Of a DNA stretch of 53,647 nucleotides, positions 7,111-21,269 are shown one piece after another. This DNA is from Planktomarina sp. (GTDB taxonomy: Bacteria; Pseudomonadota; Alphaproteobacteria; Rhodobacterales; Rhodobacteraceae): positions 21,177 through 74,823 of the forward strand of contig JAHDDS010000003.1 of assembly GCA_020629235.1 (NCBI GenBank), in the 5' to 3' direction. Position numbers and translations under genes: made by a program. The notes beneath the pieces were generated by a model that did not search any database, was not told the origin of the DNA, and saw nothing but the letters and a program-made list of their open reading frames with translations. Each line of letters starts with the position of its first letter. Positions within the stretch are counted from its first letter, which is position 1.

Positions 7111-7178
7111 CGTCGAATCCCTCTGACGGTGGTGATACGGGTATGGGGCCACACCGATTTTTGAGGAAGACTGCCCGC

Positions 7179-7202
7179 GTCGCAAGTGGACTTTATTGCG
7201 AC
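7179..7202. promoter_or_regulatory. Inverted repeat between soxB and ccmI, candidate operator
   Basis: GTCGCAA, ten bases, TTGCGAC: a perfect 7-bp dyad with a 10-base centre. It sits 69 bases upstream of the soxB start and 45 bases upstream of ccmI. The centre-to-centre half-site distance of 17 bases suits a dimeric regulator that contacts nearly successive helical turns. I cannot name the regulator. Confidence 0.5.
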
Positions 7203-7246
7203 ATATAGCCTATGACCCGCCCAGGTTGACGGGTGCGAGGGCGGGC

Positions 7247-8449
7247 ATGACAGCGCAATTTGTGGCATTTGCAGCGGGCTTGGTGGCGGCCACCGCCTTG
7301 GTGTGCGCCCTGGCCTTGGTCTGGATGCGCCGCCGCAGCGCAAGCGGGAACGCCAGCGTAGACGTGTACAAAGACCAGCTGCGCAGTTTGGACAAAGACT
7401 TGGCGCGCGGCGTGGTGTCGGCAGAAGACTTCGACAGCCTGCGCGCCGAAATTGGCCGCCGCGCCCTGGCCGCCCACAAAGGGGAACGGGCCGACCCTAC
7501 CCAAGGCCACCCCTGGCGCGTCACCCTGGGGGTCGGTGCCCTGGCGGTGGCGGGTGCCATCGCGGTCTATCCCAGTTTGGGCGCCCCCGGGGCCAGCGAC
7601 GCGCCCTTGGCCAAACGCGTGGCCCAGTCACAAGACATCCGGCTGAACCGCATATCCCAAGCCGCCGCAGAAGCGCAAATCACCCGGCCCGCCGCCCAGG
7701 CCGACCCGCAGGATGTGCAACTGTTGGACGAGTTGCGCACCGCCCTGAAGACCCGCCCCACATCGGTGCGCGGCTTTGCGTTGTTGGCGGACACCGAAGC
7801 GCGGTTGGGCAACCCCGTGGCCGCGCACGAAGCCCAAGCCCGGGTTTTGGCCCTGCGCGGGGCCAACGCCACTGCCGCCGATCACCAAAGATACGCCGAA
7901 TTTTTGATCGTGGCGGCCAACGGATATGTGTCCCCCGAAGCGGAAGCGGCCCTGCGCGAAACCTTGCGCCGCGATCCCAGTGCCCCCCTGGCCCGGTTCC
8001 GTTTGGGCACGCTTTACGGCCAAATCGGGCGCAGTGATTTGCAGTTTCGCACCTGGGACCGGCTGGTGCGCGAAGATGACCCTGCCCTGCCCTTCATGGA
8101 ATTTGTGCGCCAGCAGTTGCCCGCCCTGGCCGAACGCGCGGGCGTGCAACGCTATGCCCTGCCCGCAGGGCCAGGGCCAAGTGCTGACGACATCGCTGCC
8201 GCGCAAGACCTGTCAGATGCCGACCGCCAAGCGATGATCGAAGGCATGGTGGGCAACTTGGCCCAACGTTTGGCAGACAGCGGCGGCCCGCCTGCTGATT
8301 GGGCGCGCCTAATCACATCCCTTGGCGTTTTGGGGCGGCGCGATCAGGCCGCTGCGGTCTGGGCCGAAGCCCAGCAAACATTCGCAGACGCGCCCGCCGC
8401 CTTGGACCTGCTGGCACAAGCCGCGCAAACGGCGGGGCTGACCCCTTGA
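7247..8449 (+). CDS. ccmI: Cytochrome c maturation protein CcmI
   Basis: A 400-aa protein of the cytochrome c maturation system; CcmI binds apocytochrome c and hands it to the haem ligation complex CcmFH. It has a first transmembrane helix (about residues 5-26), a cytoplasmic coiled-coil-like loop (DQLRSLDKDLARGVVSAEDFD, residues about 43-63), a second helix (about 88-107), and a long Ala-rich periplasmic part with TPR-type helices. The loop KDQLRSLDKDLARG is the family hallmark. The ATG at 7247 places the first helix at the N-terminus as in homologues. Its stop overlaps the proposed TTG start of ruvX. The rest of ccm is not in the window. Confidence 0.92.
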   Translation: MTAQFVAFAAGLVAATALVCALALVWMRRRSASGNASVDVYKDQLRSLDKDLARGVVSAEDFDSLRAEIGRRALAAHKGERADPTQGHPWRVTLGVGALAVAGAIAVYPSLGAPGASDAPLAKRVAQSQDIRLNRISQAAAEAQITRPAAQADPQDVQLLDELRTALKTRPTSVRGFALLADTEARLGNPVAAHEAQARVLALRGANATAADHQRYAEFLIVAANGYVSPEAEAALRETLRRDPSAPLARFRLGTLYGQIGRSDLQFRTWDRLVREDDPALPFMEFVRQQLPALAERAGVQRYALPAGPGPSADDIAAAQDLSDADRQAMIEGMVGNLAQRLADSGGPPADWARLITSLGVLGRRDQAAAVWAEAQQTFADAPAALDLLAQAAQTAGLTP

Positions 8450-8919
8450 TTTTCGACGATTTCGCCGACTTCAACGCCGCCACCGCCCCCATGGCCCCCT
8501 GGCTGGGGTTGGATTTTGGCACCAAGACCATCGGCGTGGCGCTGTCGGACCGACTGTTGCAAACCGCCACCCCGCTGGAAACGGTGAAGCGCAAGAAGTT
8601 CACCGCCGATCTGGCCGCGCTGCAGGCCATAGCAGCCGACCGCGATGTGGGGGGGATTGTTTTGGGATTGCCGCTGAACATGGACGGCACCGAAGGCCCG
8701 CGCTGCCAATCCACCCGGGCCTTTGCGCGCAATTTGGACGCACCTTTGGGGCTGCCCATTGCGTTTTGGGACGAACGCCTGTCCACTGTTGCAGCGGAAC
8801 GCGCATTGTTAGAGGCGGATACCTCTCGCAAACGTCGCGCCCAGGTGATTGATCATGTGGCGGCGGCCTATATCTTGCAAGGCGCGCTGGACCGGCGCAG
8901 ACATTTGGTGGAAGGGTAG
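8446..8919 (+). CDS. ruvX: Holliday junction resolvase-like protein RuvX (YqgF)
   Basis: A 157-aa YqgF/RuvX protein with an RNase H-like fold, implicated in pre-16S rRNA 5' processing and annotated as a putative Holliday junction resolvase. Core motifs are GLDFGTKTIGVALSD (first Asp), LGLPLNMDGTEGPR and FWDERLSTVAAERALL, with the C-terminal IDHVAAAYILQGALD. The proposed start is TTG at 8446, overlapping the ccmI stop (TTGA), giving an N-terminus MIFDDFADFNAATAPM. Rhodobacterales homologues I remember begin with a similar I-x-D-D/E-x-A-D-F segment before the GLDxGTKT strand. The next start, ATG 8491, would delete it. The catalytic fold is intact either way. Confidence 0.9.
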   Translation: MIFDDFADFNAATAPMAPWLGLDFGTKTIGVALSDRLLQTATPLETVKRKKFTADLAALQAIAADRDVGGIVLGLPLNMDGTEGPRCQSTRAFARNLDAPLGLPIAFWDERLSTVAAERALLEADTSRKRRAQVIDHVAAAYILQGALDRRRHLVEG

Positions 8920-8922
8920 GAC

Positions 8923-9159
8923 ATGGCAGGCAAGGACGATCAGGTCTGGTCCCGGGCAGAGGTGGAAAGCCCCTGCATCAAACTGTGTTCCATCCACCCA
9001 GAAGCGCGGATTTGCGTGGGCTGTTTTCGGTCCATGGACGAAATCGGTGCGTGGTCGCGTCTCAGCCCCGAAGACCGGCGCGCGATAATGGCCGATCTGC
9101 CCAACCGCGCCCCCAAACTGCGCAAACGCCGCGGCGGACGGGCCGCGCGCCAAAGCTGA
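8923..9159 (+). CDS. DUF1289 domain-containing protein
   Basis: A 78-aa cysteine-containing protein of the DUF1289 family: VESPCIKLCSIHPEARICVGCFRSMDEIGAWSRLS. The four cysteines (P-C-IKL-C, then I-C-VG-C) suggest a metal-binding knuckle. The C-terminus is strongly basic (KLRKRRGGRAAR). The start at 8923 is 3 bases after the ruvX stop, so it is probably translated from the same message. The family function is not established. Confidence 0.85.
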   Translation: MAGKDDQVWSRAEVESPCIKLCSIHPEARICVGCFRSMDEIGAWSRLSPEDRRAIMADLPNRAPKLRKRRGGRAARQS

Positions 9160-9205
9160 CGGGCGCGATTCAAGGCATTATTTGACGGCAGAATTGCGGG
9201 CTTCT

Positions 9206-9997
9206 TCAGGGGGCGCTTAACCAGCGGGCCATCCCGCCGGGCATGTCGGGGCGAAAATACAGGATCACCCGCCCGTCGTCTGGGGCCGTCGCGCGCGGAC
9301 CCCAAGGTGCCACCCCGTGCAATGCCATGCGGTGGACCAGGTACGCCTGGCCTGGGCGCGCCGCCACAATCACGCGGCGGCAGGTGTCAAAGCACTGCTT
9401 GCGGGCTGCGGCGTAAATCTCGGTCACGTCCACTTGATCCCATGTGTCGGGGGCACGGTCGGCGAAAGCTGCTTGGAACGCGCGGCGCATGACCGTGTGG
9501 CTGCCGTCCCAAACCACCATGGGGCTGGCATCGGCGCTGCAGTCTGTCACCGGCAGACCCAGAACAAAGCCGTGGGGTTCCTTCAAAAACCGCCGCTTGT
9601 TGGGCCCCACGGGCAGCAATCCGTCCACATGGGCCGCATCGCGGGTCTGGCGGAACCTGTGTGCGGCGTCACTTTCGTCGGGGTCTTGGCGGGGGTATCC
9701 TGGATACACAGCCGAAATCTGCGCCCGGTCCCAAGTCACTGGCCCGTACATCTGGCTTAATGCGTCCACCGTTGCCCCGCGCAAAGGTCCCGCCCCCGCC
9801 ACAGCACCGGCGCCGTCGTTGGGCAACGCATTCACCCCCGCGTACCAGGTGCCGCCGTGGCGCAACCAGGCTGCGCGCTGGCCCGGATCGTGCGCGGTTT
9901 GCAGCGCCGTGGCGGTGGCGGCCTTGGCCCATTGGGCCAGGTCTGCATCTTCGAACGGGCCGGCCCACCCCCGGGTTGTCAGGTCGGTCAGGTCCAT
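9206..9997 (-). CDS. Phytanoyl-CoA dioxygenase-like Fe(II)/2-oxoglutarate oxygenase
   Basis: A 263-aa protein that fits the PhyH-like Fe(II)/2-oxoglutarate-dependent oxygenase layout. The iron triad is probably HVDGL (HxD, near residue 130) and the His in VHRMALHGVAPWG, with the 2-oxoglutarate Arg in DGRVILYFRP near the C-terminus. The substrate is unknown; PhyH-like proteins act on diverse small molecules. ATG 9997 overlaps the stop of the upstream TauE/SafE gene by 10 bases, so the two are translationally coupled. The in-frame extension upstream is antisense-like Gly/His-rich sequence inside that gene and is not real. Family assignment is by eye and moderate. Confidence 0.75.
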   Translation of the reverse strand: MDLTDLTTRGWAGPFEDADLAQWAKAATATALQTAHDPGQRAAWLRHGGTWYAGVNALPNDGAGAVAGAGPLRGATVDALSQMYGPVTWDRAQISAVYPGYPRQDPDESDAAHRFRQTRDAAHVDGLLPVGPNKRRFLKEPHGFVLGLPVTDCSADASPMVVWDGSHTVMRRAFQAAFADRAPDTWDQVDVTEIYAAARKQCFDTCRRVIVAARPGQAYLVHRMALHGVAPWGPRATAPDDGRVILYFRPDMPGGMARWLSAP

Positions 9998-10800
9998 ATC
10001 GCCTCGCGCAGCATGTTCAGGGCCACCAACAACAAGAATACGCCAAAGGTGCGCTTCAGCGGCCCAGGATCCATTCTGTGGGCCACCTTGGCCCCCACCG
10101 GCGCCATCAGAAACGTCAGCGGAATGATGATCGCAAAGGCAGGCACGCTGATGGCCCCAATGCTGTAGGGCAGCTGCGGATCGTCCACCGCCACCAGCGC
10201 CCACGCCAGCGTCGACGGCACCGCGATGGCCAGCCCAAACCCCGTGGCCGTGCCCACCGCGCGGTGGATGGCCACGCCCTGCAGGGTCATGGTGGGCACG
10301 CCCAAAGACCCGCCGCCAATGCCCAGCAACACTGACAACAGCCCCAGCACCGTGCTTTGCCCCCAAGCCCACCCGCGCAGGGGCAGGCTTTGGGCCACCA
10401 CCCAAGATTTTTTGCCAAACGCCATATACAGCCCAATGCCGCCGCCCAAGACGCCAAAAACAACTTGCAGCGCTGTGGACGACAGCCGCGACGCCACCAA
10501 AACCCCCAAGATGGCCCCGCAGGCAATCCCCGGGGCCCAGGCGCGCAAAATCGCGAAATCAACGCTGCCTTTGGCGTGGTGGGACTGCATGGATCGCGCC
10601 GTGGTCACGACGATGGTGGCAAGCGATGTGGCCAGGCAAATTTGCATCACCCCTGGTCCATCAAAGCCCAGGGCCGTGAAGGCATAGAAAAACGCGGGCA
10701 CCAACACGATGCCGCCCCCCACCCCCAACAGCCCGGCCAGGAACCCAGCCAACAGGCCGATACCAACCAAAAGGACCAGCACGGGGGCAAAAATTTCCAT
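9988..10800 (-). CDS. TauE/SafE family sulfite/organosulfonate exporter-like permease
   Basis: A 270-aa integral membrane protein with about eight hydrophobic segments and the repeated family signature: GFLAGLLGVGGGIVLVPAFF near residue 18 and LLSVLLGIGGGSLGVPTMTL near residue 155. TauE/SafE proteins export sulfite, sulfoacetate or similar anions; the substrate here is unknown. ATG 10800 (MEIFAPVLVLLVGIG) starts 10 bases after the dusA stop, and the gene overlaps the PhyH-like gene by 10 bases. A coupled exporter plus oxygenase could mean oxidation of an organosulfur compound and release of the anion, but that is only inference. Confidence 0.88.
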   Translation of the reverse strand: MEIFAPVLVLLVGIGLLAGFLAGLLGVGGGIVLVPAFFYAFTALGFDGPGVMQICLATSLATIVVTTARSMQSHHAKGSVDFAILRAWAPGIACGAILGVLVASRLSSTALQVVFGVLGGGIGLYMAFGKKSWVVAQSLPLRGWAWGQSTVLGLLSVLLGIGGGSLGVPTMTLQGVAIHRAVGTATGFGLAIAVPSTLAWALVAVDDPQLPYSIGAISVPAFAIIIPLTFLMAPVGAKVAHRMDPGPLKRTFGVFLLLVALNMLREAIWT

Positions 10801-10810
10801 TGCCACGGCG

Positions 10811-11845
10811 CTATGCGCTTTCGGCCACGGGGGCGGCAATGTCGTGCATTTGCGCCACCAAAGTTTCATAGTCGCGGACCGTGGCGTCGTCTTGCGCGCC
10901 CAATTCCGACAAGCTGCGCCGCCAGTGGCGTGCGCCGGGCTGGCCTGCAAACAGGCCCAGCATGTGGCGGGTCACATGGTGCAGCCTGCCGCCGCCCGCG
11001 ATGTGCGCCGCGATATAGTCCACCATTGACTGGGCCACGGTGATGCGGTCGACCTGCGGCGCTGTGCTGCCATAAACATCAGAGTCCACCCGCGCCAGAA
11101 TGCCGTACGGATCATGATAGGCCGCCCGCCCGATCATCACGCCAGAACACGGCCCATCCAAATGGGCCAAGGCCGCATCCAGCGACGCAACCCCGCCATT
11201 CAAACTGACGTGCAACGCCGGAAAAGCGCGCGCCATGGCGGTCACCAAAGCGTAATCAAGCGGCGGAATATCGCGGTTTTCCTTGGGGCTGAGGCCTTGC
11301 AACCACGCCATGCGCCCGTGGATTGTCACCCGTGACACGCCAGCGGCTTCGATCTGCGCCAAAAAGTCTGGCAAAATATCCTGTGGGGTTTGATCGTCCA
11401 CCCCGATCCGGCATTTCACGGTGATCACAGCACCATCCACCTGCCCCATCGCATCTACACAGCGGGCCACCAGGTCGGGCGTTTTCATCAACACCGCCCC
11501 AAAAGCCCCGGACTGCACCCGATCGGACGGGCAGCCGCAGTTTAAATTCACCTCTGCAAAGCCCTGATCCACCGCGATTTTTGTGGCCTGTTGCAACAGA
11601 TCGGGATCGCTGCCCCCCAGTTGCAATGCCAGCGGGTGTTCCGCTGCACTGTGCCCCAAAAGCCGGTCCAAGTCGCCATGCACAACCGCAGCAGCGGTCA
11701 CCATTTCCGTGTAAAGCAACGCCCGCGCACTGATCTGACGGTGGAACATGCGGCAATGGCGATCGGTCCATGCCATCATGGGGGCCACAGACAGCCGGGC
11801 GGCTGCCGCCAATGGATCACTGAAACTGCGTTTGGGCCCCGTCAT
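10811..11845 (-). CDS. dusA: tRNA-dihydrouridine(20/20a) synthase
   Basis: A 344-aa FMN enzyme that reduces uridine at tRNA D-loop positions 20/20a. It shows the N-terminal SVAPMMAWTDRHCRMFHR (FMN/TIM-barrel start), the catalytic cysteine in LNCGCPSDRVQSGAFGA (about residue 100), and HGRMAWLQGLSPKENRDIPPL, which is characteristic of the DusA subgroup. LNGGVASLDAALAHLDG and GVMIGRAAYHDPY complete the FMN site. It leads a compact unit with the TauE/SafE and PhyH-like genes. The gap of about 80 bases to the upstream adaptor gene, same strand, shows no clear terminator. Confidence 0.95.
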   Translation of the reverse strand: MTGPKRSFSDPLAAAARLSVAPMMAWTDRHCRMFHRQISARALLYTEMVTAAAVVHGDLDRLLGHSAAEHPLALQLGGSDPDLLQQATKIAVDQGFAEVNLNCGCPSDRVQSGAFGAVLMKTPDLVARCVDAMGQVDGAVITVKCRIGVDDQTPQDILPDFLAQIEAAGVSRVTIHGRMAWLQGLSPKENRDIPPLDYALVTAMARAFPALHVSLNGGVASLDAALAHLDGPCSGVMIGRAAYHDPYGILARVDSDVYGSTAPQVDRITVAQSMVDYIAAHIAGGGRLHHVTRHMLGLFAGQPGARHWRRSLSELGAQDDATVRDYETLVAQMHDIAAPVAESA

Positions 11846-11926
11846 GGGCCCGGTGTCGCAAACTTTTGGGCGCGTGCCAAGGGGGGCAAAGTTGCTGTCA
11901 GCCCACCGCCAAAACAGCAGGCCAAG

Positions 11927-13153
11927 TCAAAGCCCGAAGCCAAACCCCTGAAGCGTCCGCTTGATGGTGGCCCGCATGGATTTCAAAAGGGGCTGATGGT
12001 CCATGGCCACCACCACCTGCGCTTGCATCGACTGGTGTGACAGCGCCATCGACCTGTCCAGTTTGGCCAAAGCATCCAGTGCGGCGGGCGTGGGGCTGAT
12101 CTGAAGGGCGACAAAACCGGGTCTTTGTCCCGCGCCGCCGATGGCATCCGGCCCCAAAGTGCCGCGCAACGCCGCCCCTGCCCCAGGTGCGCCCAAGACG
12201 GAAAAACGAACGGTCGCCTGTGGCCCCATTTGGGCTGCGTCTTGCGGCGTGACCCAAGTGAAAAGCTGATATTCTTTGGGATGGTCACTGGCGATTTGGG
12301 CAATGATTTCAGCCCGCGCCCTGGGCCTGTCGCCTTGGGGCGCGCGCAGACGGATCACCCGTCCAGACTGGCTGGCTGTGATCCTTGGGGCGGACACCAA
12401 TTGCGCCAAAGCCGCGATATCGCGTTCCAAATCCGCGATCTGATGCGTCTGTGCGCGTGCTTGGGCGACGGCGGCTTTGCGGGCGTCCAATCGGGCGGCG
12501 TCGCGGTCTGACACCGCGCGGTTCAAGGCGCTTTGCAAGCTGGATTTTGCCAGAAGCGTGTCCACCAGTCGGCGCACGGCCAGGTGATTTGCGCCGCCAT
12601 CGGTATCCGCTTGGCCCAATTGAAGGCGTTTTGACACCAAGGTCAGCCGTTGCGACAGGTTGGCAACCGTCGATTGGTGGTTTTGAAGCCCCAAGCGACG
12701 GTGTTGATGGTCCAAAGCGCAGTCTTCGGCTGCGATGCGCAGTTGCGCCTTCACCTCTATGCCTGCGCCGCTGGCCCAGCGGTCCACCTGGGCCGCAGTC
12801 TTGGGGTCCAACAGGCATTCGCGGGCGAATTGCATCACCAAAAGCTGTCGGCGCAGGGTCTCCAGGCCCATGGCCATGGCGGCTTTGTCCAGCACCGCAA
12901 GGGTTTGTCCTGCGCTGACCTGTTGCCCGTCTTTCACCAAGATCGATTCCAACTGCGCATGTTGGGGAAGCACAACTTCAGCGGGGGACTGGCCCAACCG
13001 GATTTCCCCGTCAAAGCTGCGCAAATCTGCGATGGACACCTTGCGCAATTGGTGGGCGGTCAGCCCCCAACCGATCCAAAAGATGGCCAGGGTCAGGCCC
13101 AGCCAGAATGCGGCCCGAAGGTGCGGAACGGCCCTTGGTCTGGTGCGATCCAT
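11927..13153 (-). CDS. HlyD-type periplasmic adaptor of a divergent ABC export system
   Basis: A 408-aa membrane fusion protein. It has one N-terminal transmembrane helix (about residues 14-33), a first lipoyl half (VVLPQHAQLESILVKDGQQV, about 60-79), a long alpha-helical hairpin (about 90-250, rich in Gln, Leu, Ala, Arg), the second lipoyl half (SAPRITASQSGRVIRL, near 253), then beta-barrel and membrane-proximal regions. Such adaptors bridge a type I secretion-like ABC protein and an outer-membrane channel. It begins 3 bases after the ABC gene stop (TGA CCC ATG), so the two are coupled. No outer-membrane channel gene is nearby. The substrate is unknown. Confidence 0.85.
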   Translation of the reverse strand: MDRTRPRAVPHLRAAFWLGLTLAIFWIGWGLTAHQLRKVSIADLRSFDGEIRLGQSPAEVVLPQHAQLESILVKDGQQVSAGQTLAVLDKAAMAMGLETLRRQLLVMQFARECLLDPKTAAQVDRWASGAGIEVKAQLRIAAEDCALDHQHRRLGLQNHQSTVANLSQRLTLVSKRLQLGQADTDGGANHLAVRRLVDTLLAKSSLQSALNRAVSDRDAARLDARKAAVAQARAQTHQIADLERDIAALAQLVSAPRITASQSGRVIRLRAPQGDRPRARAEIIAQIASDHPKEYQLFTWVTPQDAAQMGPQATVRFSVLGAPGAGAALRGTLGPDAIGGAGQRPGFVALQISPTPAALDALAKLDRSMALSHQSMQAQVVVAMDHQPLLKSMRATIKRTLQGFGFGL

Positions 13154-13156
13154 GGG

Positions 13157-15124
13157 TCAGACCTTTGCTGGGGCTGCGGGCGCGTCCGCGGCTTTTCGCG
13201 GATCGTCCGATTGAATTTTCAACGTCAAAGTTCGCCGCCCATCCTGCGTCGCCTGTTCAAAATCAAGCACCCCTGCCAACACCAAGGCCAGCGGGCTGCG
13301 GTTGGATTTTTCGGGGGCATGGGCGTCTTGGGTGGCCCTTTGAATTTGACCAGAGCTGAACAGCGGCCCGTCGTCTGTCAGACGCAGGACGCAGTGGCCC
13401 ACAAAGTGTTTGAAGTCGAAGGCCAAGGTCGCGTCGCGGTGATCACCGTGCTGACATGCCAGGGCCAACAGTTCAGCGCCCAAGGTACACAGCCGGCGGC
13501 GGTTGGCTTCATCACCCTTGCGGCGAAACCGGGTGCGCAGCCAGCTTTCCAACGCTTCTTCCGCGTCCAAAACCGCGTCGCAAGTGAACCGTTGCCACCC
13601 GGATCCGCGCCGGGCCGACACTTCGCCCGCGGGGCCGATATCAACCCGTCGGCCGTTTTCCATAACCATGAAGACGTCGCACATGTCGCGCAACGCGCGG
13701 TTTTCCGTGATCAAAATCACCGCCCTGCCCGCGCGCTTTTCTTGCGCAAGCCGTTGGGCAAAATGCTCCATGACGTCCGCTGAACAGTGATCTTCGGGCC
13801 GATCAAAGATATACAGCGCGGGCGATAAAAAGAAGCTGCGCGCGAATTCAACAGTTTTTTGATCGGTGCGCGACAACGTGGTGGCATCTTCTGCGGCCAA
13901 TATTCGGTCCAGTGTTTCGCTGGACGGGGTCAAGGTTTCCAACACCTGGCGCACACGCACAGCGTCGCGCTGGCCATTGAAACTGCACAGGTTTTCCAAG
14001 GCCGATGCTTGGATCAAAGCGGGGTTTTCGCCCACATGGACGGCTTGAACCGGACCGCGCATCAAAGACCTGTCCCACAGCGATTGCCCATTGTGTTGCA
14101 CGCACCCTGTGACGGTCATTGCGTCCATGCCAAAGGGGTCCATTATGGCTTGGGCCAAGACAGATTTGCCCTGGGACGTGCCGCCCAGAAGACCAAGAAT
14201 TTGCCCGGGCTTCACCTCAAAATCCACAGCTGCCAGAAGTTTGCGCCCGTGCGGGTCGACAACGGACAGCGCGTCCACCACCAAGCCATTGTGATCCAGA
14301 CTGGTCTGCCTTTGCGGGGGCAATGGCGTTTCGCGCACGTTTGTTGTGGCGTCAAATTCGGAGGTCCGCGTCAATGACGCAGCCATTTGGCGGGCCACAG
14401 CAAAAGACGCCCAAGCGCTGCACAAGACCACGGCGGGCACGGCGGCGGCGGCCACAACTTGGGACGCGGCCAACCAGCTGGCCAATCCGCACGACACCAA
14501 GACGGACACCCAAACGGCCATTTCTGTAAAGGACCCCATCAGCGGGTTGGGGCCTGCAGATTTTTGCGCCAATGCCAGGCCCTTGCGGTCACGGCCCGAC
14601 AGAAAGCCCACAGCTTCTGCCCCATCAAAATCCCAAGCGGGTTCGACAGGTGCAAGACGCTGCGTCACCACCATGCCCAAACCCGCCAAAGCGGCAGCAA
14701 TGGGGATGCCCAGCCCCACCAATGGGTTCAGCGCGCTGAGGGCAATGAAAACCAATACGCCCACCACCGCGTCTGTCAAAACCTTGGACTGTTTACGTGC
14801 AAACCGGAAGCCGCCCAGGGCTTTGGACGCGCCAAAGCCCACCACCACAAGACCGATGACGGGCACAGCACCCACCGCCAGCAAAGCCATCAGCCCGTAA
14901 CTGTCGCTGCGCGCCACGATCAAATCCTGCAAAAACACCGTAACTGTGGCCAGGCCCAGCACACAAATCCCAGTCAACACCGAAAACAGCAGGCTGATGT
15001 ACCCGCCCCAAACGGGCAATCCGCGATCGCGCAGCTGCATTTGGCCCTGCCCTTCAGCGGGCATTTGCGCGCCCCCAGACGTTTGCGTGTGCGTGCCTTT
15101 CAAACGACGTGCCCATCGTACCAT
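13157..15124 (-). CDS. ABC transporter-like membrane/ATPase fusion with degenerate nucleotide-binding domain
   Basis: A 655-aa protein: hydrophobic segments over about residues 35-250, a nucleotide-binding domain at about 280-505, and an unrecognised 145-residue C-terminal extension. Walker A is intact (GGTSQGKS, 314-321). The other motifs diverge: the Q-loop position reads VGENPAL (Glu for Gln, about 366), the signature LSGGQ reads LSRTD (about 417-421), Walker B ends FDRPED (Arg replaces catalytic Glu, about 442), and the switch His reads LITENRA (Glu, about 474). It may bind but hardly hydrolyse ATP. I choose ATG 15124, behind an AAGGGG site, over a TTG at 15304. It is coupled to the HlyD-type gene and divergent from the DUF3131 gene. 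Confidence 0.82.
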   Translation of the reverse strand: MVRWARRLKGTHTQTSGGAQMPAEGQGQMQLRDRGLPVWGGYISLLFSVLTGICVLGLATVTVFLQDLIVARSDSYGLMALLAVGAVPVIGLVVVGFGASKALGGFRFARKQSKVLTDAVVGVLVFIALSALNPLVGLGIPIAAALAGLGMVVTQRLAPVEPAWDFDGAEAVGFLSGRDRKGLALAQKSAGPNPLMGSFTEMAVWVSVLVSCGLASWLAASQVVAAAAVPAVVLCSAWASFAVARQMAASLTRTSEFDATTNVRETPLPPQRQTSLDHNGLVVDALSVVDPHGRKLLAAVDFEVKPGQILGLLGGTSQGKSVLAQAIMDPFGMDAMTVTGCVQHNGQSLWDRSLMRGPVQAVHVGENPALIQASALENLCSFNGQRDAVRVRQVLETLTPSSETLDRILAAEDATTLSRTDQKTVEFARSFFLSPALYIFDRPEDHCSADVMEHFAQRLAQEKRAGRAVILITENRALRDMCDVFMVMENGRRVDIGPAGEVSARRGSGWQRFTCDAVLDAEEALESWLRTRFRRKGDEANRRRLCTLGAELLALACQHGDHRDATLAFDFKHFVGHCVLRLTDDGPLFSSGQIQRATQDAHAPEKSNRSPLALVLAGVLDFEQATQDGRRTLTLKIQSDDPRKAADAPAAPAKV

Positions 15125-15316
15125 AGCCCCGGCCCCTTTTATAAACGTACCGGGACGTGTGTAGGCCACGGCCGTTAACAATCCCCTGTCGCGGCCCAAA
15201 CTCATTGCAAAGATTTTGAGATAACTCGTGCCCAGTTTTTGGGTGCGCTGTGGCGGGTTTGTTAACGGGTTCAGCGATAGATGTTCGGCTGAGTTTCGTT
15301 GCAATCGGGTGGTTTG

Positions 15317-17005
15317 ATGAAAAGCAATCGCGGGACATCTAAGACGTCATGGCGCTTTGGTGCGGCGGTCTTTTTGACAGTGGGCATCGTCTTGGCCGGC
15401 GCGGCCTGGAGTGTCAGTTCAACAGCGCGCGACGTGTTTTTATTCCGCGAGGCGGAGGAAATTCCCATCATCGCTGGCGGCAATTTGGACAAAATCCCCG
15501 CATTGATGCGGGGCAACCGTCCTGCCGCCACGTCCAGCCTGATCGAAGGTGTTGCGGCCCGCCAAAAGCCGCCGCGCATGTGCGAAATGCCCGAAGACTA
15601 TTTCGAAACACTGGACCTGACGCCAGGCCGGGACCCAGGCTATGACAAGCGCAATGCTTATGTGCGCAAGTTTCGCGATCGGCGGGGGTTTTTAACTGCG
15701 CGCGAAATGGCCGCGGCCCGGGTGGCGTGGAAGTATTTTGAGCTTTACACCCAAGAAGACACCGGGCTGGCCAATGCTGTGGGGAACTTTCCGTCCACCA
15801 CGCTGTGGGACACCGCGTCCTATATCGCTGGGATGGTGTCGGCCTATGAACTTTGCATCATTGAAAAGCCTGAATTTGACCGGCGGATCATGAAACTTCT
15901 GACCACGGTCAAGGGGTTGGATCTGTTCCGCAAAGAAATGCCCAACAAAGTGTATCACACCAAAACCGGGGCCAAGGTGGATTACACCAACAAACCGGGT
16001 GAAATCGGATTTTCCGCCTTGGACATCGGACGGTATTTGGTGTGGATGCGGATCTTGAAAAACCGCTATCCCTATCTGGGCAACACCATCGACAGCACAT
16101 TGTTGAAATGGAATTATTCCAACATCATGGACAGCGAAGGCGTGATGTTCGGCGCGTTTGTCCACAAAGAAACTGGCGAAACAGTCTATGCCCAAGAAGG
16201 CCGACTGGGGTATGAAGAATACGCCGCGAAAGGGTTTGCGCTGTGGGGGTTCCAGCCGCGCTTGGCCCACCGGGCGGAACCGTTTTTGACGGCAAGTATC
16301 TTCGGCGTTCAAGTCCCCTATGACGGGCGTGACCCGCGCGTGTTCCATTCCCAAAACTATGTTGTGACGGAATCTTACCTGCAAGACGGGTTGGAACTGG
16401 GCTGGGACCTGCCCCACGACGACAGCAGCCCAGAATGGCTGCACACAGACGGTTGGCGCGCGGAATTTGCCGATCGAATTTACCAAGTGCAGGAAAATCG
16501 CTGGCGGCAGACCGGGTTCATGACGGCCCGGTCCGAACACAACGTCAAAGGCCCGCCGTACTTCACTTATGACACGATCTTTTCTGACGGCTATCCTTGG
16601 AACACCGTCACCCCGCGTGGCGATTATGTGCCGGACCACGCGGCGGTATCCGCCAAGGCCGCCATTGGATTGTGGGCCATGTGGGACACTGAATACACCG
16701 ACACGCTGTTTGACGCGATCATCGAACTTTATGACCCAGAACGCGGCATGTTCGAAGGGCTGTATGAACGCGGACAAGGACGGGTGGAAATTTTCACGGC
16801 CAACAACAACGGCATCATCCTGACATCGCTTTTGCACAAGGTTCAAGGCACCATCCTGACCGCGTTCAAGGGCGAAACCGAGGTGTGGTTCACCGCGTTT
16901 CGCGATCAAGACATTCGCCAAAAACGCAATATGCCAGACCCCCCCACCAAAAAGGACTGGCTGCCCGCTTTGCGCCATTCCGTTCAAGTAGAGGCTGAAT
17001 TCTGA
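15317..17005 (+). CDS. DUF3131 domain protein, membrane-anchored, glycoside-hydrolase-like
   Basis: A 562-aa protein with a basic N-terminus and one transmembrane segment (about residues 14-33), then a large periplasmic domain. TTLWDTASYIAGMVSAYEL near residue 160 and EIGFSALDIGRYLVWMRIL near 230 match the DUF3131 pattern (WD...S and SA.DIGR). Acidic and aromatic residues abound, as in alpha/alpha-toroid carbohydrate-active enzymes. That fold and any glycan role are inference. ATG 15317 follows a GGTGG site. Its stop overlaps the next ATG (TGATG), so the next gene is co-translated. It is divergent from the degenerate ABC gene, with 192 bases between starts. Confidence 0.85.
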   Translation: MKSNRGTSKTSWRFGAAVFLTVGIVLAGAAWSVSSTARDVFLFREAEEIPIIAGGNLDKIPALMRGNRPAATSSLIEGVAARQKPPRMCEMPEDYFETLDLTPGRDPGYDKRNAYVRKFRDRRGFLTAREMAAARVAWKYFELYTQEDTGLANAVGNFPSTTLWDTASYIAGMVSAYELCIIEKPEFDRRIMKLLTTVKGLDLFRKEMPNKVYHTKTGAKVDYTNKPGEIGFSALDIGRYLVWMRILKNRYPYLGNTIDSTLLKWNYSNIMDSEGVMFGAFVHKETGETVYAQEGRLGYEEYAAKGFALWGFQPRLAHRAEPFLTASIFGVQVPYDGRDPRVFHSQNYVVTESYLQDGLELGWDLPHDDSSPEWLHTDGWRAEFADRIYQVQENRWRQTGFMTARSEHNVKGPPYFTYDTIFSDGYPWNTVTPRGDYVPDHAAVSAKAAIGLWAMWDTEYTDTLFDAIIELYDPERGMFEGLYERGQGRVEIFTANNNGIILTSLLHKVQGTILTAFKGETEVWFTAFRDQDIRQKRNMPDPPTKKDWLPALRHSVQVEAEF

Positions 17006-18567
17006 TGAAACCACTTTCCTTTGCCACTGCGGCCCTGACGGCCGCACTTTTGGCCAGCCCAGCCTGGACCCAAACAGAAACCGCCGCGTCCTTCACATCG
17101 GAAAACGCGATCCTGGACACGGGCATTGCCTTTGCCATCGGCGCCCGCGAAGCACAGCAGAACTTGCGCGGATCCTTTGGCTGGTCCACCTTCCAAGAAG
17201 GATTGGTGGAAGGGGTCTATTTCCGGTTCGATCCGGACGGATACGCCCGTTTTTCGCCGTCGCCTCGATTGGACACGGACGTGTTCGAAGTGATCTGCCG
17301 GCCCCGCACCTATACCTGCATGGCGCGCAAAGACGCGTTGTCGATCATTCCTTTGCCCAATGGCAAAGTGCAGTTGAAATTAGAAGACGTGCGCCCCGGT
17401 GATGGATTGTATCTGTCTGATTCCAAATCAGAATTGCAACTTCCCGACCGAATTTTGCAACCCTTAGAATTGCAATTTGAAACGCTTCTCAGCGCCGGTG
17501 GGGAATTGATCGTCCGGCGCGGCGAAAAAGAAATTCTGAAAACATCGCTCAGCGGATTTGGGGCGGTTGTGCCCTATCTTCGGTGGATATCAGCGCGCCA
17601 AGACTACACCGTTTTGCCGCGCACCTGGCCCGTGCCCAATGCCCAAGGCAGCGCAGATGGGTCCATCACCAACGCGGTGGGCTGGGCGTCGCCCATGCCG
17701 CAGCCCCAGGCGATCCAGCAAGTGGGCCCGGGCGCGCAATATGTGAATTCGGTGCAAGCGGACCCCGGCGAACAGGTCACGGTCGATTTGCAAGAATTGC
17801 GCACCCTTTTGGCCGAACGGTCCAACGCGGGTGAGCCAAGCAATCCGCCCGCCGCAGCCCCTGTGGCTGAAGACAGGACCGCAAAATTGGAACGCACTGT
17901 GGCCGAACTGATGGCGGAAATCCGGTTGCTGCGCACTGCAGGACGCGCCGACGACGTGCCCGCCCCCCAAAGTGCCGCGGCCCCATCGCCACTGTGGACT
18001 GACCCTGTCGCACAGGTGGCCCCCATGCAGCCGCAAGCTGTTGCCGATCCCGCGCCGGATTTGACAGCCCGGCCAATGGCAGCCCAAGCGCTGCCCACGG
18101 AAGTGGATCATTTGGATTATCTGGTGAACAAAATGGGCTTGGCCCCCAAAACAGCCATGATCTTGTTGCAAATTGTGGGCACCGGCACTGAACAAGGACC
18201 GCAAAGCGATGCGATGGAACGCAGTTATCACGACAGCTTGGCGGTGACGATCTTGAATGAATTGGAACGCGACCTGGCCCGCGCCGATGCCAGTGATTTG
18301 GCAACGGCATCAGGCGATCTGACGGACACCAAAAAGCAAATGGATCCAGGACAATTGGACCCGTTGCAATCCAGCGCAACAGTCGAAAGTGATGGCCCGC
18401 TGCTGGCCGATCTGGTCGACGTTGACAGTGCAGTCGACGGTGTTTCCACGGACACGGGTGTGACAAACGAAAACCCAATGTCCAAGCCCGCGCGGCTGGA
18501 TCTGTCTCAGTCAGAATATCAACCGCTGACGGCCTATTTCAAATCAGTGATCCAGGCTGATCCATAA
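17005..18567 (+). CDS. Secreted protein with coiled coil, partner of the DUF3131 protein
   Basis: A 520-aa protein I do not recognise. A signal peptide is clear (MKPLSFATAALTAALLASPA, cleavage near residue 20-23). Residues about 25-205 look like a folded beta-rich domain with two cysteines at 98 and 105 (a possible disulfide). A proline/glutamine-rich linker follows (about 205-285), then a short coiled coil (about 288-312, AKLERTVAELMAEIRLLR), another Pro/Ala linker, a helical segment (about 365-400), and an acidic C-terminal tail. It overlaps the DUF3131 stop by one base. It probably acts in the periplasm or on the surface together with that protein. Confidence 0.85.
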   Translation: MKPLSFATAALTAALLASPAWTQTETAASFTSENAILDTGIAFAIGAREAQQNLRGSFGWSTFQEGLVEGVYFRFDPDGYARFSPSPRLDTDVFEVICRPRTYTCMARKDALSIIPLPNGKVQLKLEDVRPGDGLYLSDSKSELQLPDRILQPLELQFETLLSAGGELIVRRGEKEILKTSLSGFGAVVPYLRWISARQDYTVLPRTWPVPNAQGSADGSITNAVGWASPMPQPQAIQQVGPGAQYVNSVQADPGEQVTVDLQELRTLLAERSNAGEPSNPPAAAPVAEDRTAKLERTVAELMAEIRLLRTAGRADDVPAPQSAAAPSPLWTDPVAQVAPMQPQAVADPAPDLTARPMAAQALPTEVDHLDYLVNKMGLAPKTAMILLQIVGTGTEQGPQSDAMERSYHDSLAVTILNELERDLARADASDLATASGDLTDTKKQMDPGQLDPLQSSATVESDGPLLADLVDVDSAVDGVSTDTGVTNENPMSKPARLDLSQSEYQPLTAYFKSVIQADP

Positions 18568-18629: not shown

Positions 18630-18983
18630 TTATGACCCGCGATAGGTGGAATATCCAAACGGGCTGAACAACAGCGGCACGTGATAGTGTGCGTGTTCGG
18701 CCATGGCAAAGCGCAGCGGAATATCTTCCAAAAACAACGGATCGGGCAACGCGCTGCCCTGGGTGCGCAAATATTCGCCCGTATGAAACACCAACTCGTA
18801 GCGGCCCGTTGCGAATTCGGCTTCTGGCAAGATCGGGGCGTCCGTGCGACCGTCAGCGTTCGTGGTGGCCTGGGCAATTTGATCCCAGCCTGCCCCAGTT
18901 TGCCGCGACAAAGTGATGGCAATGCCCTGCCCCGGAATGCCCAAAGCGGTGTCCAAAACATGGGTTGTCAAAAATCCAGCCAT
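18630..18983 (-). CDS. uraH: 5-hydroxyisourate hydrolase
   Basis: A 117-aa transthyretin-like protein that hydrolyses 5-hydroxyisourate to OHCU in urate degradation. It has the N-terminal LTTHVLDTALGIPG with the catalytic His, and the diagnostic C-terminal tetrapeptide YRGS. ATG 18983 (MAGFLTTHVLDT) gives the standard length. It is divergent from puuE-uraD, whose UraD part uses its product; the 66-base spacer carries an inverted repeat at 19009-19030. The 62 bases to the convergent secreted-protein gene hold only a weak GC-rich stem. Confidence 0.95.
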   Translation of the reverse strand: MAGFLTTHVLDTALGIPGQGIAITLSRQTGAGWDQIAQATTNADGRTDAPILPEAEFATGRYELVFHTGEYLRTQGSALPDPLFLEDIPLRFAMAEHAHYHVPLLFSPFGYSTYRGS

Positions 18984-19008
18984 TGGCAAATCCCTTGCGC
19001 TGCGTAAT

Positions 19009-19030
19009 GCTTGGTTCACAAACCCCAAGC
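19009..19030. promoter_or_regulatory. Inverted repeat between uraH and puuE-uraD, candidate operator
   Basis: GCTTGG, ten bases, CCAAGC, with an inner GGTT-CACA-AACC dyad, so 10 bp on each side can pair with small slips. It is centred between the divergent starts at 18983 and 19050 and would suit a ureide- or purine-responsive regulator. No regulator gene is adjacent. Confidence 0.4.
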
Positions 19031-19049
19031 CCGCGCGAAAGGCAAGCAA

Positions 19050-20450
19050 ATGAACCGGTACCCCCGCGATATGTCAGGCCACGGCCCAACGCCCGTGAAC
19101 GCGCAATGGCCCCAGAATGCGCGCATCGCCATCCAAATCGTGGTGAACTATGAAGAAGGCGGCGAAAACAATGTTTTGCACGGCGATCCCGCGTCCGAGG
19201 CATTTTTGTCCGAAATCGTTGGCGCCGCCCCTTGGCCCGGCCAGCGCCACTGGAACATGGAAAGCATCTATGAATACGGTGCGCGCGCCGGATTTTGGCG
19301 ACTTTACCGGATGCTGCAAGACCTGCCGGTTACCGTTTTTGGCGTGGCCACTGCGCTGGCGCGCGGGCCCGAACAAGTGGCCGCCATGGCACAAGCGGAT
19401 TGGGAAATCGCCAGCCACGGATTGAAATGGATCGACTACAAAGACGCCACCCCCGACGCGGAACGCGCAGATATGTTGGCTGCAATCGACCTGCACACCA
19501 ACGTGGTGGGCCACCCGCCCCGGGGATGGTACACGGGGCGCTGTTCGGAAAACACAGTGCGCCTGGCAGCAGAAACCGGAATTTTTGACTATGTCGCCGA
19601 CAGTTATGCCGACGATCTTCCATTCTGGACGGAAATGGGCGACCGCGCCCAATTGATTGTCCCGTATACACTTGATGCCAACGACATGCGCTTCGCCACG
19701 GCCCAAGGCTTTAACGCCGGGGACCAATTTTTCACGTACCTGAAAGACAGCTTCGATGTTCTGTATGCCGAAGGTGGGCGCATGATGTCGGTGGGTTTGC
19801 ATTGTCGGTTGGCGGGCCGGCCTGGGCGGGCGGCGGCGCTGCAGCGGTTTTTGGAATACGTTCAGAGCCATGACGACGTCTGGTTTGCCACCCGCGCGCA
19901 GATCGCCGATCATTGGTCAAACACCCACCCCCACGTGCGGTGGGACCGCCCCAGTGCCATGGACCGCGACACCTTCGTGGCAGCATATGGTGGCATTTTC
20001 GAACACTCGCCCTGGGTGGCGGACCATGCCCACCGGCTGGAACTGGGCCCCCACCACGACTGTGCCGTGGGTCTGCACAACGCCCTGTGTCGCGCATTTC
20101 GGGCGGGCGGCGACGGGCGCCGGCTGGCCGTACTGCAAGCCCACCCAGATTTGGCCGGAAAACTGGCGGCGGCCAAACGCCTGACCCGCGACAGCACCGC
20201 CGAACAGGCCAGCGCCGGGCTGGATGCGCTGACCGACGGCGAACGCGCCACATTTGAAAAGATGAACGCGGATTACACCGAAAAGTTCGGCTTTCCCTTC
20301 ATCATTGCTGTGCGTGATCACACCAAAGCCAGCATCCTGGCTGCCTTCAAGCAGCGTCTGACCCAAGACCGCGACACCGAATTGGCCGAAGCATGTTACC
20401 AAGTCGAACGCATCGCGCTGCACCGTTTGAAAGACACCCTGCCCCGGTGA
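19050..20450 (+). CDS. Bifunctional allantoinase (PuuE type) / OHCU decarboxylase (UraD) fusion
   Basis: A 466-aa fusion. Residues about 1-305 are a polysaccharide-deacetylase-like allantoinase of the PuuE type (IAIQIVVNYEEGGENNVLHG, GAAPWPGQRHWNMESIYEYG, SHGLKWIDY), which opens allantoin to allantoate. Residues about 310-466 are a UraD domain with AHPDLAGKLA (catalytic His), STAEQASAGLD and YTEKFGFPFIIAVRD, which decarboxylates OHCU to S-allantoin. The two steps are consecutive: UraD makes allantoin and PuuE consumes it. ATG 19050 follows AAAGGCAAGCAA. The stop abuts the allE stop on the other strand with no gap. Fusions of this kind occur in alphaproteobacteria. Confidence 0.93.
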   Translation: MNRYPRDMSGHGPTPVNAQWPQNARIAIQIVVNYEEGGENNVLHGDPASEAFLSEIVGAAPWPGQRHWNMESIYEYGARAGFWRLYRMLQDLPVTVFGVATALARGPEQVAAMAQADWEIASHGLKWIDYKDATPDAERADMLAAIDLHTNVVGHPPRGWYTGRCSENTVRLAAETGIFDYVADSYADDLPFWTEMGDRAQLIVPYTLDANDMRFATAQGFNAGDQFFTYLKDSFDVLYAEGGRMMSVGLHCRLAGRPGRAAALQRFLEYVQSHDDVWFATRAQIADHWSNTHPHVRWDRPSAMDRDTFVAAYGGIFEHSPWVADHAHRLELGPHHDCAVGLHNALCRAFRAGGDGRRLAVLQAHPDLAGKLAAAKRLTRDSTAEQASAGLDALTDGERATFEKMNADYTEKFGFPFIIAVRDHTKASILAAFKQRLTQDRDTELAEACYQVERIALHRLKDTLPR

Positions 20451-21269
20451 TTAAAGCCGCAAAGCCGGGTGCCGATTGACGTCCTTGTAAAGCAGGTATT
20501 TGAACGGTTCTGCCCCCGTGGCGTAACACCCCTGCGGGCAGAAGGCGCGCAGCCACAAAAAGTCGCCGGCGTCCACCTCCATCCAGTCTTGGTTCAACAG
20601 ATAAATCCCACTTCCCTGCAAAACATAGATCCCGTGTTCCATCACATGGGTTTCTTCAAACGGGATCGACGCACCGGGCCGCAACGTCACGATGTTGACG
20701 TGCATATCGTGGCGCAAATCGTCCGGGTCCACAAAGCGCGTCGTGGCCCAGGCGCCATCGGTTCCGGGCATTTGAACCGCGGCGGCGTCATCTTCGTGGG
20801 TCACAAAACTGGTGGGGCTGTCCAGACCGTCTGCGGCCACAAAGGCTTTGCGCACCCACTGAAATCTGCAGGCCGCGTCCGACGCATTGGCGAAAGCCCA
20901 CGCGGCCCCGGCGGCAAGATAGGCATAGCTGCCCGCCACCACCGCGTGATCCACCCCGTCCACGGTCAAAGTCCCGGTCCCGTCGGTGACAAAAATCACG
21001 CCCTGGGCGGTCTTATCGGGTTCGGGCGCTCTACTTCCGCCGCCTGGGGCCACTTCCACTGCGTATTGCGCAAAAGTTTCGGCAAATCCCGACAGCGGGC
21101 GGGCCAAAATCCAAGCCCGGGTGTCTGTCCAATGGGGCAAAAAGCTGGCGGTGATGTCGCTTAAAACCTCGCCCGGGACCACGGCATAGCTTTCTGTGAA
21201 AACCGCCCGGCCTTTGGTGCGCTGGCGTTGCGGCGGCAAACCGCCTTTGGGAAATGCGTATTGGGTCAT
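20451..21269 (-). CDS. allE: (S)-ureidoglycine aminohydrolase
   Basis: A 272-aa bicupin enzyme that removes ammonia from S-ureidoglycine to give S-ureidoglycolate, downstream of allantoate. Two cupin domains are seen: TAQGVIFVTDGTGTLTVDG (about residues 87-105) and the C-terminal one with the metal-site segment FEETHVMEHGIYVLQGSGIY (about 205-224: E, H, H), followed by GDFLWLRAFCPQG. The start is MTQYAFPKGGLPPQRQRTKG. It is convergent with puuE-uraD, with directly abutting stops. The connecting enzyme, allantoate amidohydrolase, is not in the window. Confidence 0.93.
   Translation of the reverse strand: MTQYAFPKGGLPPQRQRTKGRAVFTESYAVVPGEVLSDITASFLPHWTDTRAWILARPLSGFAETFAQYAVEVAPGGGSRAPEPDKTAQGVIFVTDGTGTLTVDGVDHAVVAGSYAYLAAGAAWAFANASDAACRFQWVRKAFVAADGLDSPTSFVTHEDDAAAVQMPGTDGAWATTRFVDPDDLRHDMHVNIVTLRPGASIPFEETHVMEHGIYVLQGSGIYLLNQDWMEVDAGDFLWLRAFCPQGCYATGAEPFKYLLYKDVNRHPALRL

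Follow-up and report, generated by a model that had tools for sequence, protein, structure and literature searches.

The OpgG/OpgH/OpgC system combines a family 2 glycosyltransferase (GT2) of the inner membrane, a periplasmic glycan enzyme, and an acyltransferase. NdvA/ChvA is an ATP-binding cassette (ABC) exporter for cyclic beta-1,2-glucan, and bgsBA, the mixed-linkage glucan operon of Sinorhizobium, encodes a GT2 synthase and an adaptor-like protein; we know of no DUF3131 protein, ABC protein, or partner switch in the latter. In Klebsiella pneumoniae, a set of genes termed block 3b comprises a cellulose synthase gene, three DUF3131 genes, opgC, and genes for a hybrid kinase and for an anti-sigma factor with its antagonist; in the part of the source that was available, it is described only as genes tied to a main axis of genome variation (PMC12974863). 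Here, we describe a locus with a DUF3131 gene in Planktomarina sp. (family Rhodobacteraceae). The locus lies in a 53,647-nucleotide stretch of DNA (assembly GCA_020629235.1, contig JAHDDS010000003.1, positions 21,177 to 74,823), the whole of which we call the window, and it has the following parts, numbered by position in the window.

11927..13153, minus strand: HlyD-type periplasmic adaptor, 408 aa, following the ABC gene after 3 bases
13157..15124, minus strand: ABC fusion protein, 655 aa, with its ATG at 15124
15125..15316: divergent intergenic region, 192 bases between the two start codons (ATGs)
15317..17005, plus strand: DUF3131 protein "a" (DUF3131a), 562 aa, with a match to PF11329
17005..18567, plus strand: secreted-looking protein, 520 aa, with an apparent signal peptide and no Pfam family

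An earlier note on this DNA had described this divergent arrangement of two coupled pairs, and all of its open reading frames (ORFs) and the gap between them are present where it placed them; the DUF3131a and 520-aa ORFs overlap by 1 base. We conclude that the four genes make up one half of a larger glucan locus, the other half of which lies on another contig in this genome. We judge the chances to be evenly balanced that they supply the periplasmic and regulatory side of a glucan locus of the synthase-dependent kind, and that in it a pseudo-ABC/HlyD trans-envelope scaffold or gate, coupled to a degenerate partner switch, exerts control over a glucan remodeled in the periplasm. The anatomy of the locus is well supported; from it, we infer the function.

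The second half of the locus and its distribution

Contig C18 of the window genome carries a gene for a second DUF3131 protein (DUF3131b; 37% identity) in a locus, L013, that also encodes a BcsA-like GT2, a nucleotidyltransferase-LbH-type protein (NTPT), an acyltransferase (Acyl_transf_3), and a small OmpA protein. In genome G011, genes of the L013 type and the four window genes form a single cluster (L016), flanked, as in the window, by a Dus gene. In genome G020, both halves run as one operon-like series (L017). The earlier claim that no glycosyltransferase (GT) lies nearby therefore holds for the window itself, where no GT profile matched, but not for the locus, whose GT is on C18 here and contiguous with the four genes in L016 and L017. 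The window genome (G000) is a metagenome-assembled genome (MAG) of 2.59 Mb, 87% complete with 0.25% contamination, and of the 20 genomes examined in its genus (G000 to G019), only 3 had a DUF3131 gene. The split is not merely a binning artifact, because the locus is split in the same way in another genome of the genus (G019) and in the isolates Actibacterium pelagium (L046/L076) and Pseudaestuariivita atlantica (L047/L077). In a further isolate, Shimia ponticola, both halves are on a single contig, separated by ~210 kb (L050/L081).

The GT motifs DDG, DxD, ED, and QxxKY are intact in 52 of 52 sequences, and we therefore conclude that the synthase is not decaying. The L013 GT scored 176.6 bits against the cellulose synthase (BcsA) model TIGR03030, below its cut-off of 699.1, and Pfam identified no PilZ domain in the two GTs scanned. 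The locus thus follows the logic of the OpgG/OpgH/OpgC system (an inner-membrane GT2, a periplasmic glycan enzyme, and an acyltransferase), but with a GT that is BcsA-like and an enzyme that is a DUF3131 protein rather than OpgG. No OpgG (PF04349) was found in the window genome, a result that is not final given its 87% completeness. Across 394 genomes of the window's family, OpgG occurred in 10 of 34 genomes with DUF3131a and in 169 of the 360 others, a difference that is not significant (p 0.07).

The same survey of 394 genomes identified 24 with a close DUF3131a homolog (type A; at least 70%) and 10 with a homolog of 57 to 61% (type B); among the rest, one had broken DUF3131 pieces and 18 had a distant match alone. 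The 520-aa protein was found in all 24 type A genomes (in G099 only as a weak 45-position match), in 0 of 10 type B genomes, and in 1 of 360 others, the last match being a 41-position fragment. Its association with close DUF3131a is highly significant (24/24 versus 1/370; Fisher p 1.6e-37). A class-level search detected the 520-aa protein in 2 of 190 genomes, both of the window's family.

We then scored loci from named genomes with local profiles. The 80 best loci out of 351 were kept, a set that does not include the window's own record; 63 were type A (67 to 93% identity) and 17 were type B (58 to 62%). Type A loci encoded the secreted protein in 60 cases, the ABC fusion in 55, HlyD in 49, the acyltransferase in 44, the GT in 35, NTPT in 34, and DUF3131b in 33, and in 26 of the 63 all of these genes lay within ~21 kb. 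Type B loci encoded the acyltransferase and DUF3131b in 17 cases each and the GT in 16, with no ABC, HlyD, secreted protein, or NTPT in any of the 17. Wherever both were found, the HlyD gene adjoined the ABC gene (49 of 49), and of the 60 secreted-protein genes detected, 58 adjoined DUF3131a. The ABC gene was on the strand opposite DUF3131a in 39 loci and co-directional with it in 16. The two pairs belong together, as had been proposed, with the ABC gene in 55 of 63 loci of close homologs and 0 of 17 sister loci; a search of related genomes for the pairs occurring independently did not find that pattern.

Partners were missing from some type A loci. Short or cut contigs explain some of these absences (L102, L106, L111, L117, and L144). 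Eight of the 63 loci had no ABC gene, and in five (L118, L130, L131, L147, and L148) the absence looks real in the stretches examined. Three loci (L112, L119, and L125) had the ABC gene without a recognizable HlyD gene, and in L136 HlyD fell under the threshold. L130 and L131, both from Albidovulum MAGs, encode the secreted protein and DUF3131a with no ABC or HlyD and have an RR-PP2C match nearby (182 to 188 bits); they are a possible intermediate form.

The 520-aa protein has a conserved N-terminal domain (approximately residues 36 to 210) followed by a variable tail that is P/Q rich and coiled coil. We aligned the window protein with 30 of 60 relatives and, by eye, observed an N-terminal Sec-type leader in these 31 members. 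No Pfam family was found in the window copy, and none was consistent among the 31 proteins scanned. A guess that the protein is IalB-like was set aside, having no Pfam support.

Fold and candidate active site of the DUF3131 protein

DUF3131a scored 389.9 bits against PF11329, above the Pfam gathering cut-off of 20.3. It has a hydrophobic N-terminal helix (residues 12 to 41), which we take as transmembrane, and then an (alpha/alpha)6-type domain. We compared a predicted model of the protein (pLDDT 88.4) with known structures. The highest score was to the GH189 structure 8wy1 (VIA Z 29.5; 365 residues aligned; root-mean-square deviation, 3.1), followed by GH144-type, Cgs, and related beta-1,2-glucan enzymes (Z 23.1 to 26.7) and a GH162 beta-1,2-glucanase (Z 20.9); all other structures scored at most 20.2. 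Foldseek retrieved the same enzyme group, with GH144-type structures ranked first. By its fold, then, the DUF3131 protein is a glycan-type enzyme, in agreement with the earlier note.

Comparison of sequences pointed to the same group. A profile of 56 DUF3131 sequences (the window protein, 33 of 80 DUF3131a sequences, and 22 of 50 DUF3131b sequences) detected 8wy1 with an E value of 5e-6 and NdvB/Cgs with an E value of 0.011. No match to PDB was obtained by sequence with the single protein or with a type A profile. GH144 was considered as the nearest family and rejected: profile comparison gave a probability of 1.1% (E 0.046) for GH144, in a set that includes an ORF of L167 whose reading frame is uncertain, versus 83% (E 8.5e-6) for GH189. 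The Glycoamylase model PF10091 gave no match to DUF3131a at E values up to 1, and because PF10091 fails to detect DUF3131 we refer to the protein as GH189-like and not as GH189.

Three glutamates of DUF3131a are candidate counterparts of GH189 residues.

16196..16198, plus strand: E294, proposed acid/base, in QEGRL (GH189 counterpart, SEARL/E1356); invariant in 56 of 56
16370..16372, plus strand: E352, proposed counterpart of GH189 E1400, in TES; invariant in 56 of 56; mapped less securely than the other two
16535..16537, plus strand: E407, proposed nucleophile, in ARSEH (GH189 counterpart, ISES/E1442); invariant in 56 of 56

The pairing was made from motif, spacing, and a low-confidence hhalign path. 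The positions of GH189 residues E1356, E1400, E1442, and H1536 were taken from the available part of PMC10834661. Two Cgs domains have SEARL, FEY, ISES, and HH spaced exactly as these four residues are. DUF3131 proteins resemble the GH189 cyclic glucan synthases (TiCGS and NdvB/Cgs) in their (alpha/alpha)6 fold, their profile match, and their plausibly spaced E-x-R-L and S-E motifs. They differ in having an N-terminal hydrophobic helix or leader, in being predicted as periplasmic, stand-alone, and paired, and in that His1536/1537 seem to be Asn. On the strength of the model, we suggest that DUF3131 proteins are GH189-like glucan transglycosylases. DUF3131 is rarely named in the open-license literature searched, and the portions of it that were available gave no function for it; the main text of a paper on the beta-1,2-glucanase clan, to the extent available, contains no word starting with "DUF" (PMC12102758).

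Degenerate ABC, kinase, and STAS modules

The ABC fusion (42.7 bits against ABC_tran in Pfam) has hydrophobic N-terminal segments, about six by eye, followed by two domains.

13616..14245, minus strand: nucleotide-binding domain (NBD), aa 294 to 503, with D-R-P-E in place of D-E at Walker B and E in place of the H-loop His
13160..13597, minus strand: C-terminal SpoIIAB/RsbW-like (GHKL) pseudo-kinase domain, aa 510 to 655, from predicted structure

We aligned the NBDs of the window protein and 55 relatives (56 rows, one relative being cut before Walker B). The Lys of Walker A (GxxxxGK[ST]) was kept in 56 of 56 proteins and the Walker B Asp in all 55 that have that column. The catalytic Glu that should follow this Asp was found in 0 of 55 proteins, the window included; the replacing residue was R in 40, Q in 4, S in 4, M in 2, T in 2, and G, V, and A in 1 each. 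The H-loop His was present in 1 of 55, with a His one residue later in four, and LSGGQ was present in 0 of 56. As a control, other ABC ATPases of the same loci had D-E in 25 of 26 cases. With the catalytic Glu missing from every NBD that has its column and the H-loop His missing from all but one, an energized glycan export complex, one of two readings offered in the earlier note, is not supported.

In its order of transmembrane domain and NBD and in its adjoining HlyD gene, the ABC fusion is like the ABC proteins of type I secretion systems (PrtD), but it has lost the catalytic Glu and the H-loop His and has an extra C-terminal domain. Among the models listed, none of the curated type I ones reached its cut-off: PrtD, the highest among the best 25 of 124 NCBIfam ABC models compared, scored 66.5 bits (cut-off, 510.15), LssB scored 55 (693.1), and type_I_hlyD scored 15 (208.65). 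The adaptor itself barely exceeded the cut-off for HlyD_3 (23.0 bits versus 22.2) and fell below those for Biotin_lipoyl_2 (29.0 bits versus 29.8) and, by far, TIGR03794 (42.2 bits). Type I secretion and plain export are disfavored by these scores and by the NBD residue tallies.

The C-terminal 146 residues of the ABC fusion were modeled with AlphaFold2 at a pLDDT of 93.8. The top Foldseek matches of the model were SpoIIAB, and VIA gave Z scores of 14.5 to SpoIIAB, 14.3 to UsfX, 14.1 to RsbW, 12.7 to SiaB, 12.6 to Rv1364c, and 12.0 to LvrC, versus at most 8.4 to histidine kinases and other GHKL proteins. The predicted domain thus has the anti-sigma-kinase-type GHKL fold. It was present in all 50 aligned rows (the window protein and 49 of 55 relatives, with cut, near-duplicate, or N-containing sequences dropped), and the N-box Asn (Mg-ATP) was present in 0 of 50. 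The other reading of the earlier note, a regulatory complex at the envelope, remains plausible and gains a structural basis from this domain.

Partner switching pairs a kinase of this type with a STAS protein (PMC8256260, of which part was available), and genes for both modules occur in the loci. Among the 17 type B loci, STAS was found in 15, HATPase in 16, and RR-SpoIIE in 15; all 15 STAS proteins have the phospho-Ser, and all 16 HATPases have the N-box Asn, which was recognized by pattern in 12 and by eye in 4. Twelve Amylibacter-type loci all encode STAS with DSSG, a HATPase ORF (7 over 40 bits and 12 by motif), and the ABC fusion. Strict mutual exclusion of the ABC gene and separate STAS/HATPase genes had been entertained and was given up in view of these 12 loci, scored at a threshold of 40 bits; higher thresholds (80 for STAS and 60 for HATPase) had hidden their STAS and HATPase genes.

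Such exclusion applies only to the 49 core loci, which are the window's group: they had no separate STAS or HATPase over 40 bits in the locus stretches examined, the STAS profile having been built from one sequence. The ABC gene was found in 43 of them and NTPT in 32; L130 and L131 have RR-PP2C and no ABC gene. In this group, STAS is fused to NTPT, Pfam identifying STAS in 17 of 23 NTPT proteins (22 of the 32 core proteins and the window genome's own). The phospho-acceptor Ser of the D-S-S-G loop was present in 0 of 33 NTPT-fused STAS domains. Of these 33 proteins, 22 have an intact NTPT motif; in the two from Planktomarina it is broken. In L148, STAS and the NTP transferase are separate neighbors. 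In L186, from another class of the phylum (G655:C2:1238000-1257999, positions 8755 to 17975), RR-SpoIIE, STAS, NTP transferase, HATPase, GT, and three tandem DUF3131 genes are adjacent but all separate; this is the unfused form of STAS-NTPT and a natural outgroup.

The locus is like the SpoIIAB/RsbW-SpoIIAA/RsbV, SypE-SypA, and SiaB-SiaC switches in having a kinase fold (Z 12.7 to 14.5) and a STAS partner in one cluster. Unlike in those systems, the kinase fold forms the C-terminal end of an ABC membrane protein, STAS is joined to a nucleotidyltransferase, and the window's group has lost key catalytic or phospho-acceptor residues in both modules. The gene content of Klebsiella block 3b, compared by description and not by sequence, matches the layout of type B loci and L186; the available part of that description mentions no ABC protein, HlyD, secreted protein, or STAS-NTPT fusion (PMC12974863).

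Several further DUF3131 loci were observed. L162, in Azotobacter beijerinckii, is a type B-like locus outside the Alphaproteobacteria, with a DUF3131a that is 59% identical, and may derive from horizontal transfer. In L084 (G165:C1, positions 7916 to 11884), whose surroundings are otherwise of type B, both DUF3131 genes are present as fragments, and neither a GT nor an acyltransferase was matched. L187 and L188, from another family of the phylum, have paired DUF3131 genes with a GT, a STAS-like gene, and a PAP2 gene and no ABC or HlyD profile match; L188 also encodes a GH2-like protein. L189 (G097:C1, positions 6521 to 9094) is a long frame with a divergent DUF3131 domain, adjoining a 1,142-aa ORF with a weak GT-profile match, and similar frames occur in the 18 family genomes with distant matches. 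These long frames (831 to 1,959 aa; 26 to 41% identity over parts) probably belong to a different glycan system. Beside the four genes, at positions 18630 to 21269 of the window, are genes resembling those of purine (urate/allantoin) breakdown: HIUase (Transthyretin family), a fusion of a deacetylase-like protein with OHCU decarboxylase, and a double cupin.

Possible roles: scaffold, exporter, or accessory layer

In the mechanism that we propose, the BcsA-like GT2 would make and extrude a beta-glucan, which the two periplasmic DUF3131 proteins, as GH189-like transglycosylases, would cyclize, branch, or trim and which the acyltransferase would decorate. The ABC-HlyD pair would bind nucleotide without normal hydrolysis and act as a stable trans-envelope scaffold or gate, not as an ATP-driven exporter. 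At its cytoplasmic side, the SpoIIAB-like pseudo-kinase domain would dock the STAS domain of the STAS-nucleotidyltransferase-like protein; at its periplasmic side, HlyD would meet the DUF3131 and secreted proteins. In Amylibacter-type loci, the ABC domain may be the effector to which STAS switches, and the switch could stay phospho-controlled. The window and the rest of the core group have lost the phospho-serine, and there docking may be constitutive or driven by ligand binding to NTPT.

Several observations weigh against such a scaffold. Assignment of the C-domain rests on structure because the tests by sequence profile and Pfam failed: a C-domain profile found nothing among type B HATPases (probability 8%), and Pfam identified HATPase_c_2 in no part of the window C-domain and only weakly in 3 of 50 relatives (best E 0.026). 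The ABC domain is not simply a relocated kinase, because Amylibacter-type loci keep STAS and HATPase beside it. No Pfam STAS was detected in the window genome's own NTPT at E values up to 0.1, so that its STAS domain is assigned by homology to relatives. Six of the 63 type A loci, some of them from short contigs, have the secreted protein without the ABC gene. The NBD offers two further points: a Glu two residues after the Walker B Asp (D-x-P-E) is invariant (55 of 55) and might catalyze hydrolysis, and a degenerate ABC subunit could pair with an active partner subunit, degenerate sites being common in non-homodimeric exporters, according to the available part of PMC7756269.

If either were so, the ABC-HlyD pair could be a working exporter of glucan or of a lipid or peptide, regulated by its C-domain and comparable to NdvA/ChvA. 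The conserved Walker A Lys, Walker B Asp, and D-x-P-E fit this explanation, as do the constant adjacency of the HlyD and ABC genes and the resemblance of DUF3131 to an enzyme whose pathway includes an ABC exporter (NdvA). We nevertheless consider it doubtful. The catalytic Glu, the H-loop His, and LSGGQ are gone, other ABC ATPases stand near some loci only and include no constant member, and type B loci manage without any ABC gene. Moreover, as stated in the part of that source available, transport is blocked when a canonical site has its catalytic Glu replaced, and loss of this Glu is often accompanied by H-loop changes (PMC7756269). That the genes serve type I secretion of a protein, with the 520-aa protein as a possible cargo, strikes us as highly improbable. 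PrtD was the best NCBIfam ABC model and the adaptor is HlyD-like, but all type I models listed were far below cut-off, the ABC catalytic residues are lost, and the 520-aa protein has an apparent Sec-type leader, which type I substrates are not known to have.

An explanation of another kind, which we consider unlikely, is that the ABC, HlyD, and secreted proteins make up an outer layer of accessory function that, for example, anchors or senses the finished glucan and has no control over synthesis, the SpoIIAB-like domain being a vestigial dimerization module. Type B loci would agree with this, in that they lack all three proteins (0 of 17) yet mostly retain the GT, both DUF3131 genes, and the acyltransferase, and so would the absence of the N-box Asn from the C-domain. 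Against it, the C-domain is retained in every aligned row and folds with high confidence in the window protein, and many of the same clusters encode STAS, its usual partner fold.

Returning to the scaffold wired to a degenerate partner switch, we tentatively advance a more specific form of it, in which we have rather less than even confidence. An ABC scaffold that does not hydrolyze ATP and carries a SpoIIAB-like pseudo-kinase would, through a nucleotide-locked ABC-HlyD conformation and STAS docking, signal to the glucan-remodeling machine across the membrane when to act; a transporter would thus have been recycled as a partner-switch signaling device. The ABC protein, as scaffold or signal receiver, is possibly a new component. 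A search of the open-license literature found nothing joining ABC transporter, SpoIIAB, STAS domain, and exopolysaccharide, which is a weak negative, and none of the titles among the matches listed describes such a bacterial case.

DUF3131 gains a testable enzyme type from this work, that of a GH189-like glucan transglycosylase. The locus shows ABC, kinase, and STAS modules that have been retained though key catalytic residues are lost, and the isolate strains and the sister loci with an intact switch allow direct comparison. If the proposal is true, an ABC protein would act in signaling or scaffolding, and a partner switch would be aimed at a membrane complex instead of a sigma factor.

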